Positions 9,563 to 14,514 of a stretch of DNA of 38,574 bases are shown one piece after another. The position numbers and the translations under genes were made by a program. The DNA is from Anaerolineae bacterium. GTDB lineage: Bacteria; Chloroflexota; Anaerolineae; Aggregatilineales; UBA3940. Within the stretch, counting starts at the first letter, position 1. Each line of letters begins with the position of its first letter. The stretch lies in contig JAFGLD010000055.1 in NCBI GenBank assembly GCA_016928235.1, positions 1 to 38,574 on the forward strand. Reading direction: 5' to 3'. The notes under the pieces are model-generated. The model searched no databases and had not been told where the DNA came from. It was given only the letters and a program-made list of their open reading frames with translations.

Positions 9563-10302
9563 AAGGCTATGAGGTTACACTTAGGCCATACCAGAATAAC
9601 AAATGCTCTTTTCGATCAATGCCTTCGCCAATGCCGTCATTCCCGCGAAAGCGGGAATCCATCTATCACTCGGTCGAATGGAGGCCATTGTCTGACTTCT
9701 AAGGACAACCTGCCGGGACATTTATTTCTTTGGAATGGCCTTATTGGATGAACAAGAGCATAACAGCAGAATGGAGATGGGAAGAGCCAGGGTCTAGAGA
9801 GTCTGTCTACGGGTTGTTTTTGACAAGAACCATTGTGGGCAAAAGTCGTCGATGCTGGCTCCTATCTCCCAGTGGTACAGGATAAGAGCGAGCACCTGTC
9901 CCTATCATGGAATTTCCCTGTGGATGTTTGTCCTATAATCGTTGCCTGGGGTTCCTCTATCCATCCTAAAATCATCCCAACAGTATCTCATAATCATCCC
10001 GGCCATTCATGAAAGCTCCATGCTCGGATTGCCGTCTCGTCAATGGACGAGGAGGAGCAGTCTCAGCGATTTCTTCACCACTGTGATCGCTTATGGTTAT
10101 CGTGTTTTCTCGATATGGAGGTAACGTTGCATTTCTCGGCGCTTTTTATGCGTAAAAAAGCCACAACAGAGACATTGTCCCTCGAATTGTTGAGAAGATA
10201 CCCCATAGCTTATTCAGGAAACGCCCGACCCCCATATGATTGTCCCAATCTCATCATCCAATGCGAGGACGGTCTCGATGCCGACAGCGGCGAAACCATG
10301 GG
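9563..10302. other. 740-bp intergenic region
   Basis: No gene is supported. The short open frames at 9942-10306 lack ribosome binding sites and protein motifs. The region holds one dRS3-like palindrome (9639-9658) in an ATTCCCGCGAAAGCGGGAAT context. The rest could be decayed DNA; nothing else is recognised. Confidence 0.5.
9639..9658. repeat. dRS3-like palindromic repeat
   Basis: ATTCCCGCGAAAGCGGGAAT is a 20-bp palindrome that fits ATTCCC-N8-GGGAAT, the consensus of the neisserial dRS3 repeat. Related dispersed palindromes occur in many bacteria. Single copy in this window. Confidence 0.5.
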
Positions 10303-11553
10303 TTAATGCCGCGTGACACCTGGGTCGAAGTGAAGTGGCAGCATGATGGTAAAGGTTGTGCCAACACCTAGATCGCTTTCAACCGTAATGCTGCCACCAT
10401 GTCCTTCAACGATGCGTCTGGTAATCGCCAAACCGAGCCCGGTTCCTGTCGTATACCCCTCGGTATCCGCAACACGATAAAACTTCTCAAACATGTGGGG
10501 AAGATTTTCCGGCGCGATACCCAACCCGGTATCCCGGACTGTGACAACGATGTGTGGTTCGTAGTGGGCGGCAGTCACGGAAACACTTCCCTTTTCACGA
10601 TTATATTTAATGGCATTGGTCAGGAGGTTGAGAACAACCTGCTTGAGCTTTTCGCCATCGCCGGTCAGGGATGGTAATGGGGCGGGGGATATCTCCAATT
10701 TTAGGCTGATGTGATGCTCGTCAGCCTGGGGCGAGACGGTTTCGACGGCACTTTGCAAGATTTCACCCAGGTCGATCGGGTTACGAGCCAGGCGGCTGCG
10801 GCCAGACTCCAACCGGGCCAAATCCAGGAAATCGGTTGTCATACGTGTGAGACGCTTTGTTTCCTGGGCGATAGTATTAACCATCTGCATATGTTGCTCG
10901 GGAACGAGGTCGGCGCGTTTGAGGATGTGGGTTGTTGCGTTGATGGCAGCCAGCGGGGTTCGCAGCTCATGGACCATTTCGGAGATGAAGTCATTCTGTT
11001 GGAACAGCCGGGCATTCTCGATAGTCAGCGCAGCCTGAGCAGCCAGCGTGGTCAGCGTGCTGATATCCTCGTCGGTAAAGGGGTGATCGTCTTTCTTGTT
11101 GAGGGCTTCCAGACAGCCGATCACTTTGTTGTGTGCTCGCATGGGAACGGCCAATAAGCTGCGTGTCTGAAAATCGCTCTCCTCATCCACCTTGCTAAAG
11201 AACATTGGCTCAGATCTTGCATCAGTGATAACCAGCGGCTCGCCATGTGACACAACCCAGCCCGCAATACTGTTCTCGAGCGGGACATCGATGGATGCCA
11301 GAGAGACGCCCATTGGATCAAAGGCAGCTTCGAAGCGAAGGGTGCCCGTGGCCTTATCCAGCAATAAAATCGATGACGCTTCTGTATCAGTTAGCTCAGC
11401 AGCAGCCACCACGATCTGCTCGAGCAACACACTGATATCCAGTGTCGAGATGAGCGCCCGGCTGAGTTCCATCAGGCGCTCGTAGCGGGCTAAAATCCTG
11501 ACATACTTCCGCAATATGGTATTGGGTTGTTTTGCCTGTTCGACCTGTGTCAT
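10303..11553 (-). CDS. GAF-domain sensor histidine kinase
   Basis: 416 residues, no membrane segment, so cytoplasmic. A short coiled N-terminus leads into a GAF domain (about 30-183). HisKA follows, with phospho-acceptor His195 in SEMVHELRTPL, then HATPase_c with the N box NLLTNAIKYN (about 309-318), G1 DTGLGIAP (341-348) and G2 TGTGLGLAI (369-377). All catalytic residues are present. GAF domains bind small ligands or chromophores; no bilin-type Cys is evident in the aligned region, though this was only read by eye. The ATG at 11553 is chosen over 11598, whose extra residues look non-coding. Likely paired with the response regulator at 12558-12986. Confidence 0.9.
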   Translation of the reverse strand: MTQVEQAKQPNTILRKYVRILARYERLMELSRALISTLDISVLLEQIVVAAAELTDTEASSILLLDKATGTLRFEAAFDPMGVSLASIDVPLENSIAGWVVSHGEPLVITDARSEPMFFSKVDEESDFQTRSLLAVPMRAHNKVIGCLEALNKKDDHPFTDEDISTLTTLAAQAALTIENARLFQQNDFISEMVHELRTPLAAINATTHILKRADLVPEQHMQMVNTIAQETKRLTRMTTDFLDLARLESGRSRLARNPIDLGEILQSAVETVSPQADEHHISLKLEISPAPLPSLTGDGEKLKQVVLNLLTNAIKYNREKGSVSVTAAHYEPHIVVTVRDTGLGIAPENLPHMFEKFYRVADTEGYTTGTGLGLAITRRIVEGHGGSITVESDLGVGTTFTIMLPLHFDPGVTRH

Positions 11554-11621
11554 GCTGTGCCTGCCTGTTTTAAACTCTTTGCATGTCAGAAAAACCATGG
11601 CTGGTGTGGAATGGGGTGTGT

Positions 11622-11791: not shown

Positions 11792-12511
11792 TTACTGCTC
11801 ATTGCTGAGGCCTTGCAGATCGTCGTTGATGGCGTGCCACTCAACCAGAGCATCCTGAGGCAAAGGAGCAAGCGACAGAAAAGGCTCTAATCTCAATTGT
11901 ACAGTGAGCAATCCTTTCTCACCAAATTGATAAACTCGGCTCAAAAGCTCGTCAGGGGTGAAAGACAGCAGGTCGGCAATCGTATGGATGCCACCTCGCT
12001 TCAATGCCCTATGAAAGTGGGTGGGCAATTTCAGGATATCAATACTAAGCCAGTAGGCAGGAACACGGCGCAGAACATCCAGGGGCCAACCAGGGGGAAT
12101 CGCAGCCTCATTGGAATGCTTGCGCCGAGAAGTGTGGACAGTTTGAAATGCCTTTTGTTTAGTCTGGGTCTTGTCGGGCGGCAGGTTACGGCTGTAGCGA
12201 TTGGCTACCACTACCACTTCAAAGACATCAGGCGGAGGATTTTCTCGTAGGTATGTTCTAAGAGATTTCTGGACAGGCAAAATATCTTTTGACCTGACGA
12301 TTCGCTGTAGATCGGTCTGTGTCAGTGACAGCACATCGGCGATCATATGCATGGCCACTCGTTTGAGATTGAGATAATATTGATAAGGCAAATTATTCAG
12401 GACGGATATCCCTTGTTGATAAGCAGGAACAGCCAAAACAGCTTCCCGAGGCCAGCCAGGAGGCAAGTTCTCTATGGCAAAGAGGATCTCATACAAGGAT
12501 GTCATGTTCAT
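11792..12511 (-). CDS. Protein of two RNA-polymerase-alpha-CTD-like domains
   Basis: 239 residues made of two diverged copies of one unit. Each starts with PPGWPxxxxxxVPAY (about 17-31 and 139-153), then has a helix-hairpin-helix segment like the alpha-subunit C-terminal domain: 35-88 and 156-211. The second is clearer: SIDILKLPTHFHRALKRGGI, then HTIADLLSFTPDELL and YQFGEKGL, matching the alpha-CTD pattern LxxSxRxxNxLkxxgIxTxgdLlxxtexeLlxxxnfGkkSl. There is no alpha N-terminal (assembly) domain. The position of E. coli Arg265, which contacts DNA, appears to be His. It lies 46 bp after the response regulator on the same strand. Role unknown; DNA, RNA polymerase or protein binding is inferred. 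Confidence 0.7.
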   Translation of the reverse strand: MNMTSLYEILFAIENLPPGWPREAVLAVPAYQQGISVLNNLPYQYYLNLKRVAMHMIADVLSLTQTDLQRIVRSKDILPVQKSLRTYLRENPPPDVFEVVVVANRYSRNLPPDKTQTKQKAFQTVHTSRRKHSNEAAIPPGWPLDVLRRVPAYWLSIDILKLPTHFHRALKRGGIHTIADLLSFTPDELLSRVYQFGEKGLLTVQLRLEPFLSLAPLPQDALVEWHAINDDLQGLSNEQ

Positions 12512-12557: not shown

Positions 12558-12986
12558 TTACTTTGGCGGCAGCTTCACAACACATAGCCAGAAATCTTCT
12601 ATCGCCTGTACCACTCTGATAAATTGGTCCAGGTCAACAGGCTTAGAGATATAGCAATTCGCATGCAGGTTATATGTCATCAAGATGTCTTGTTCAGCCT
12701 CTGAGGTGGTTAATACAACTACCGGTATGCGCCTCAATTCTTCATCGGATTTTATTTCTGCTAAAACCTGGCGGCCATCTTTTTTGGGTAAGTTCAGGTC
12801 AAGCAAGACGACATCCGGCCGCAGCGCATCTGTGTAGTCTCCCTCATGCCGCAAGAAAGACATAGCCTTAACCCCATCATCGACAACATACAGCTTGTTG
12901 TTGACATGGGCTTCTTTCAGTGCCTCGGCTGTTAAACGTACATCACCTGGATTATCTTCCACCAATAAAATAGAAACTGGATCCAT
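12558..12986 (-). CDS. Single-domain response regulator (Rcp1-like)
   Basis: 142 residues, receiver domain only. Acidic pocket Glu10-Asp11, phospho-acceptor Asp63 in [13 protein letters not shown], Thr93/Thr94 in VVVLTTSE and Lys115 in YISKPVD are all present. The insertion [13 protein letters not shown] after helix 2 is typical of the Rcp1 group, which partners phytochrome or GAF-type histidine kinases. There is no output domain, so it must signal through a protein partner. The start ATG follows ACAGGAG. A 9-bp inverted repeat lies just upstream (13003-13035), and the two-alpha-CTD gene follows after 46 bp, so the two are likely co-transcribed. Confidence 0.92.
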
Positions 12987-13203: not shown

Positions 13204-13357
13204 CTATTGACATTTCTTTATGATAGCTAGTGTTTCGCGGCATAAGTAAGCCGTCGGTTATGGCCACATGCGAAACACTTAAACAGTTGGGTATGAAGGG
13301 CTTCTTTACTGCCGGGCTATTTAGAGCACTTTTTACCGTATTAATGTCAACAGAACC
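13204..13357. mobile_element. Degenerate element of the GGTTCTGTTGACATT family containing repeat R2
   Basis: The right end AATGTCAACAGAACC (13343-13357) is identical to the MITE end at 6558-6572. A weaker left end, CTATTGACATTTC (13204-13216), matches the opposite end of that MITE. The interior is repeat R2. The left boundary is uncertain. Confidence 0.45.
13229..13322. repeat. Dispersed repeat R2 (copy of 168-260)
   Basis: The intact copy of the repeat next to the IS3 end: arms GTGTTTCGC and GCGAAACAC enclose GGCATAA...TTATGGCC. It continues through GGGTATGAAGGGCTTCT and CTGCCGGGCTATTT, where similarity to R1 stops. Confidence 0.7.
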
Positions 13358-13509
13358 CGGTGTTTCGTGTAAGCCCATAGTTGCGTGAGATATCATGGAT
13401 AGTAGCCAGGTTGATATGTTGTGATGCATGGCTCACTTGTCGCTCTTCATTATCGTTCCTCCTAAGATATTTTCTATACATGGCTTATGGTATAGGATTG
13501 ATATTGTCT

Positions 13510-14514
13510 ATGTTGCCCATGATAGAAATTAAGCACCTGCAAAAAGTCTCTGGCACACACAGCTTGCTGCACATTGAATCGCTCACGGTCCAGGCTGGGC
13601 AGATAGTGGCAATAGTCGGACCGGTGGGCAGCGGCAAGAGCGAGCTTCTGGCACTACTGCTGGGCCAGTCGCAGCCGACTGCGGGTGAAGCACGCCTATG
13701 CGGTCTGGCCCCATGTCATCATCGTAGACAGATCGGTGAACGAGTAGGCGTAGCGTTCCGTGACCTGGGGCTATATGAGCGTCGAACAGTTCGCAACAAC
13801 CTGGTCTTTCACTGTATTCTGCGTGGTCTGCCTGCACGGCGTGCCGATGAAGTTTTGGCTGAAGTAGGGTTAGTCGATCAGGCTAACATAAGAGCGGGCA
13901 AACTGTCCCCTAACCTGGCACGTCGTCTGGCCTATGGACGGGCAATTCTCCATCAGCCACAGGTGCTACTGATGATGGAGCCGTTCTCTGGGTGTGACAC
14001 AGTCTCGTGTGAGATACTTTCGGAATCTATCTATCAAAAGGCACAGGCAGGCTGTAGCGTTTTGATTCTGTCGCATGAGGGAATCGGGCTGGCAAGCTTG
14101 TGCAGTGCGATCTACTCGCTCAATCAAGGCCGCTTAAGCCATGTCAATCTGCCGCGTGACCATTCTCGCCATGATCTCCCTTTCAAAATCCCTGCCCGAC
14201 AAGAGGGTCAGGTAATACTCATCAACCCGGCTGATCTGCTGTATGCAATAGCTGATGACGATCAAACACGCCTGCACACCCTTCAGGGACAGAGCATTCT
14301 CAGCCATCTGACGATGGGAGAACTCGAAGCACGCCTGGGGCGTAACGGCTTCTTTCGTGCCCATCGCAGCTATCTGGTCAACTTGCAGCGTGTCAAGGCT
14401 GTTATTCCTTACACACGCGATAGCTATACCCTGATCCTCGATGATCAGTCCAATACCGAAATCCCTCTGAGCAAGAGCGCCGCAAAAGAATTACGCGATC
14501 TCCTTGGATATTGA
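13510..14514 (+). CDS. ABC-type ATPase domain fused to a LytTR DNA-binding domain
   Basis: 334 residues. Residues about 4-215 are an ABC ATPase: Walker A GPVGSGKS (37-44) and the H-loop LILSHE are intact. The Q-loop Gln is Arg (AFRDLGLYERR), the signature is LSPNLARR instead of LSGGQ, and Walker B reads LLMMEP with the usual Asp replaced by Met. Residues about 232-332 are a complete LytTR domain (FFRAHRSYLVNLQRVKAVIPY...), the DNA-binding fold of AgrA-type regulators. There is no membrane segment. Probably a nucleotide-responsive transcription regulator rather than a transporter motor. The start is ATG 13510 or 13519. It heads a plus-strand group with CPBP protease and ABC-2 genes. Confidence 0.85.
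   Translation: MLPMIEIKHLQKVSGTHSLLHIESLTVQAGQIVAIVGPVGSGKSELLALLLGQSQPTAGEARLCGLAPCHHRRQIGERVGVAFRDLGLYERRTVRNNLVFHCILRGLPARRADEVLAEVGLVDQANIRAGKLSPNLARRLAYGRAILHQPQVLLMMEPFSGCDTVSCEILSESIYQKAQAGCSVLILSHEGIGLASLCSAIYSLNQGRLSHVNLPRDHSRHDLPFKIPARQEGQVILINPADLLYAIADDDQTRLHTLQGQSILSHLTMGELEARLGRNGFFRAHRSYLVNLQRVKAVIPYTRDSYTLILDDQSNTEIPLSKSAAKELRDLLGY

Follow-up and report, generated by a model that had tools for sequence, protein, structure and literature searches.

The closest described system is the C-terminal domain of the RNA polymerase alpha subunit (alpha-CTD), in which Arg265 is described as crucial for contacts with UP elements and with some activators (PMC2988021). The literature searched, which was mostly open-access, yielded no paper on alpha-CTD proteins of the accessory or free kind. 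The locus studied here lies in a 38,574-nucleotide stretch of DNA from an Anaerolineae bacterium (contig JAFGLD010000055.1 of assembly GCA_016928235.1), referred to throughout as the window. It encodes a 239-residue protein that an initial annotation had read as two alpha-CTD-like domains without the alpha N-terminal domain (alpha-NTD). Judged from its sequence, the protein is a tandem pair of alpha-CTD-derived modules, free of the alpha-NTD. Its parts and its two neighbours are as follows.

11792..12511, minus strand: gene for the double alpha-CTD-like protein (239 aa, ATG start; open frame, codon-position pattern, only alpha-CTD families match)
12419..12466, minus strand: GWP..VPAY segment of half 1, residues 16-31, LPPGWPREAVLAVPAY (half alignment and pattern match)
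12221..12418, minus strand: alpha-CTD-like module 1, degenerate, at about residues 32-97 (accessory profile score 18.4 bits; identity to module 2; no Pfam match alone)
12101..12220, minus strand: basic linker, residues 98-137 (pI 10.5, charge about +5)
12053..12100, minus strand: GWP..VPAY segment of half 2, residues 138-153, IPPGWPLDVLRRVPAY (pattern match and half alignment)
11852..12049, minus strand: alpha-CTD-like module 2, residues 155-220, with the C-terminal extension common to accessory alpha-CTD modules (Pfam, hhalign, accessory profile)
12558..12986, minus strand: stand-alone response-regulator receiver (Pfam Response_reg, E 1e-18), its stop codon 46 bases upstream of the start of the alpha-CTD gene
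10303..11598, minus strand: soluble GAF-HisKA-HATPase sensor kinase (Pfam), 193 bases downstream on the same strand

The internal duplication described in the initial annotation was borne out. The pattern PPGWPx6VPAY occurs twice (residues 17-31 and 139-153), and the blocks that contain it, residues 16-97 and 138-220, share 39-43% identity (43% over 84 columns in one alignment). Smith-Waterman alignment of one half against the other scored 132, whereas 1000 shuffles averaged 26.5 and never exceeded 45. With the GWP segment removed, the halves still scored 76, and shuffled sequences reached at most 46. Shuffling ruled out chance resemblance, both between the halves and of half 1 to the alpha-CTD. 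Identity between the halves was 0.58, 0.63 and 0.37 at codon positions 1, 2 and 3, respectively, and this excess at positions 1 and 2 over position 3 indicates that the similarity has been kept at the protein level and that the frame is very likely coding. The GC content of the gene was ordinary for the window.

Residues 155-207 in half 2 matched the Pfam family RNA_pol_A_CTD (PF03118) with an E value of 8.1e-9 and 35.5 bits, against a curated cut-off of 23.8. RNA polymerase alpha subunits, through their C-terminal domain only, led the results of the PDB sequence searches, of NCBIfam and of a two-row profile of the halves. The proposal of two alpha-CTD-derived domains is supported, the alpha-CTD being the best family in every profile search, and the annotated absence of the alpha-NTD held as well: profile searches of the ORF gave no match to the N-terminal dimerisation domain, all matches being confined to the CTD region. 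The normal RpoA of the host genome, with an intact CTD, is encoded on another contig (G000:C191). Comparison with RpoA CTDs by hhalign gave a probability of 97% for half 2 and of 50% over 25 columns for half 1. Searched alone, half 1 found no match in Pfam, and it scored 18.4 bits with the profile of accessory alpha-CTD modules described below, for which the best of 2000 shuffles reached 6.0. Half 1 is thus a degenerate copy, tied to the alpha-CTD mainly through half 2. We infer the helix-hairpin-helix fold of the modules from homology. AlphaFold run on the window's own sequence, without relatives, returned no usable model, with a pLDDT of 39 for the full protein and of 62 for half 2 with half 1 as its sole alignment partner, and Foldseek found no structural match with these predicted models.

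The DNA-contact residues were compared at eight positions in E. coli alpha-CTD numbering. Positions 265, 268, 269, 271, 296, 298, 299 and 302 are R, N, C, K, G, K, S and E in E. coli, H, R, A, K, G, K, G and T in half 2, and Q, L, N, K, R, K, D and P in half 1. Six of these (Arg265, Asn268, Gly296, Lys298, Ser299 and Glu302) are kept in 10 of 10 RpoA CTDs of the class, where position 271 is Lys or Arg; half 2 retains only Gly296 and Lys298 and half 1 only Lys298, the Gly of the hairpin being replaced in half 1 by Arg at the 296 equivalent. The His noted earlier in place of Arg265 was confirmed for half 2, half 1 having Gln there, and the suggested loss of UP-element recognition gains stronger support than had been claimed for it, both halves and most of the other contact positions being altered. 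Since nearly all accessory modules keep Arg265, the loss is specific to the window protein, and on these residues UP-element recognition by either module is unlikely. A free double alpha-CTD could in principle occupy UP elements and so block RNA polymerase, and the protein does carry two alpha-CTD-type modules with no NTD. Because the UP-element-binding residues are substituted in both modules, however, a competitor of this kind is disfavoured and we regard it as very improbable.

Many helix-hairpin-helix proteins bind the DNA backbone, and the protein might bind DNA without sequence specificity, its helix-hairpin-helix folds and basic linker lying on the backbone with a recognition unlike that of UP elements. 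Consistent with this, the linker is strongly basic (pI 10.5, charge about +5) in a protein of pI 9.1 overall, neither the linker nor module 1 is acidic, half 2 keeps the Gly296 and Lys298 equivalents and half 1 the Lys, and HHH_5 was the second Pfam match for the protein, below threshold. Yet the Arg265, Asn268, Ser299 and Glu302 equivalents are gone from both halves, the hairpin Gly is lost in half 1 and half 2 is net acidic, and we consider non-specific DNA binding somewhat unlikely.

The GWP..VPAY segment had been put forward as a possible new small domain, which our searches did not support. The PGWPx6VPAY pattern, searched as DNA, matched twice in the window and in none of 100 dinucleotide-preserving shuffles. 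Contigs of the species collection held 26 exact matches, which look like chance because none of their reading frames (0/26) shows an alpha-CTD-like domain; viral contigs held none, and among 396 genomes of the class a convincing pair was present only in the window's own genome. The search for further GWP..VPAY repeats that had been proposed thus yielded no convincing one outside the window protein, and a widespread domain was ruled out, the other motif matches lying in frames without an alpha-CTD-like domain. At about 16 residues and with no relatives found, the segment is better regarded as an N-terminal extension that both modules carry and that is specific to this lineage. Orthologues of the protein were likewise absent from a back-translated peptide scan of 84,980 species, from 249 genomes of the class and 61 near relatives, and from the 396 class genomes when these were searched with the two-row profile of the halves, leaving no conservation outside the window's genome to support a function. 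A phage or plasmid origin was rejected, relatives there being limited to RpoA-like matches, as was membership of a defence system, the window protein having no PADLOC match.

The best profile matches were mostly accessory alpha-CTD modules from other families in the same class and not the native alpha subunits of that class. Such modules occur in sets of three followed by sigma-70 region 4 and a HARE-HTH part that matches weakly (L005/L125), as a pair with sigma-4 and HARE-HTH (L123), singly at the N-terminal side of a DUF3670-SNF2 helicase (L126), and singly with sigma-4 in three genomes of the window's own order (L129-L131). A profile built from 17 such modules scored 58 bits with half 2, compared with 31.7 for the profile of class RpoA CTDs. 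Common to the window halves and the accessory modules are a canonical loop length, where class RpoA and bL31 modules carry an insertion of 3-4 residues, and a C-terminal L..YL..xPxP extension. RpoA CTDs from the other classes of the phylum equal the accessory modules over the core (joint-profile score). The case for an origin among accessory modules therefore depends mainly on the C-terminal extension and on the difference from the class's own RpoA. The nearest single sequence to half 2 was the SNF2-linked module of L126 (46% identity over 65 columns). A tree of these short domains did not resolve the relationship: no starred branch holds the window halves, and the tree speaks neither for nor against their monophyly. 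Accessory alpha-CTD modules, whether free or fused, are, to judge by sequence, widespread in Chloroflexota; the window protein is an unusual member of this wider kind and appears to be an offshoot of the alpha-tail module family that is probably DNA-blind.

With relatives of this kind, the protein might also be an evolutionary remnant, the N-terminal piece of an alpha-CTD repeat/sigma-4/HARE protein that has drifted without function since its C-terminal part was lost. Several alpha-CTD repeats do precede sigma-70 region 4 in relatives, three with a single alpha-CTD belong to the same order, the distribution is that of an orphan and half 1 is degenerate. The genome also holds no sigma-4/HARE partner gene beyond ordinary sigma-factor-like matches; a split gene with its partner elsewhere was rejected, these matches spanning about 57-96 residues. 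However, the 239-codon frame is intact, identity between the halves is well above that of position 3 at codon positions 1 and 2, and the retention of GWP..VPAY by each copy points to constraint since the duplication. Neither the ORF nor the 190 bases downstream contains a sigma-70 region 4 or HARE part, and even a trace of sigma-4 is missing from those 190 bases. On balance we consider a functionless remnant unlikely.

Further alpha-CTD fusions were met. A ribosomal protein bL31 with a C-terminal alpha-CTD module is encoded in the window's own genome (L014, 1468-2217, minus strand), in L010 and in L119 (5499-5990, plus strand). Ribosomal_L31 and RNA_pol_A_CTD were above the Pfam cut-off in L014 and L119, L010 was recognized by alignment and reading, and the class has three or more genomes with this fusion, the window's own among them. 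A ribosomal protein bS16 with a C-terminal alpha-CTD module was seen in L122 (3478-4098, minus strand), and NusA with two C-terminal RpoA-type modules in L119 (2619-4667, minus strand) and L121 (1858-3858, minus strand), the domain evidence coming from L119. Together, the NusA, bL31 and bS16 fusions suggest that in this group the alpha-CTD links transcription to translation. The helicase of L126 (1895-5272, minus strand) comprises DUF3670, SNF2-rel and Helicase_C, with the alpha-CTD module at its N-terminus. In L118 (2-1711, minus strand, running off the contig end) a single frame leads from PNP_UDP_1 (phosphorylase superfamily) through a pair of alpha-CTD modules to sigma-70 region 4, and the alpha-CTD part of this protein also resembles a section of the PADLOC PglW profile.

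The spacing of 46 bases makes co-transcription of the response regulator and the double alpha-CTD gene possible. In a sister species, orthologues of both neighbours (90% identical in amino acids and 80% in nucleotides) lie on different contigs and beside other genes. The alpha-CTD gene was not found in that species, where about 220 bases are visible upstream of the kinase, and its gene arrangement does not support a conserved operon with the neighbours. The arrangement in the window suggests, weakly, that expression or activity of the alpha-CTD protein is tied to the response regulator and sensor kinase; because the sister species separates the neighbours and shows no such gene, the signalling link is tenuous and may be accidental.

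Elsewhere in the window, positions 13222-13323 hold an interspersed repeat of about 96 bases with dozens of copies at 94-99% identity in the same genome; the sister species has related copies at 88-94%. A second interspersed repeat at 9583-9742, with several genome copies (82-94%), includes the perfect GC-rich hairpin TTCCCGCGAAAGCGGGAA. An ABC transporter ATPase and a LytTR DNA-binding domain share a single ORF at 13381-14514 (plus strand), downstream of which are membrane-protease-like and ABC permease-like ORFs.

With the DNA-contact surface lost in both modules, protein-protein contact is the most likely mode of action. Our leading explanation, to which we attach slightly less than even confidence, is that the protein would serve as a stand-alone two-module adaptor or decoy that works on the transcription machinery through protein contacts. 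Its two accessory-type modules, separated by a basic linker and each bearing a GWP..VPAY extension, would derive from the phylum's pool of accessory alpha-CTDs, known by their sequences from fusions to sigma-70 region 4, HARE/winged-helix and SNF2. Both modules have lost the DNA-contact surface at the level of individual residues, and in place of reading UP elements they may bind the transcription machinery or a regulator that normally docks on the alpha-CTD. Co-orientation hints faintly that the response regulator/sensor kinase pair could govern expression or activity. A more specific version, which we think distinctly unlikely, would make the free, DNA-blind double alpha-CTD a soluble docking platform, titrating or redirecting RNA polymerase or the regulators that depend on the alpha-CTD and acting as an anti-activator or adaptor, with the neighbouring response regulator in control and GWP..VPAY as a new binding element.

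If the adaptor explanation is true, the activator-docking domain of RNA polymerase has become a regulatory component in its own right. Taken with the sigma-4, SNF2, NusA, bL31 and bS16 fusions, it suggests the alpha-CTD as a general transcription-connecting module of the phylum, and a domain mobile in this way is of no less interest than the single orphan. The alpha-CTD family itself is already known; what is new here is an alpha-CTD module freed and doubled.

Compared with the RNA polymerase alpha-CTD (PF03118), half 2 is a significant member of the family. Unlike the alpha subunit, the window protein has no alpha-NTD, carries two modules in tandem and has lost the DNA-contact residues; it adds the N-terminal GWP..VPAY segments and the C-terminal extension, and it lacks the 3-4 residue insertion of the class RpoA CTD. 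In the bL31, bS16 and NusA fusions (L014, L122, L119) the module is likewise detached from the alpha-NTD, but the tested bL31 modules, bS16 and the double-module NusA score higher with the class RpoA profile than with the accessory profile, in contrast to half 2. The SNF2 helicase of L126 has a single module, fused to DUF3670-SNF2, which keeps Arg265 and Asn268. The alpha-CTD-repeat/sigma-4/HARE proteins (e.g. L125, L127, L123, L129) differ from the window protein in having sigma-70 region 4 and HARE/winged-helix parts, and most of their modules keep the Arg265 equivalent that it lacks. They are nevertheless alike in their tandem modules of canonical length and in the C-terminal extension of the L..YL..HPLP type, and it is with their profile that half 2 reaches its best score.
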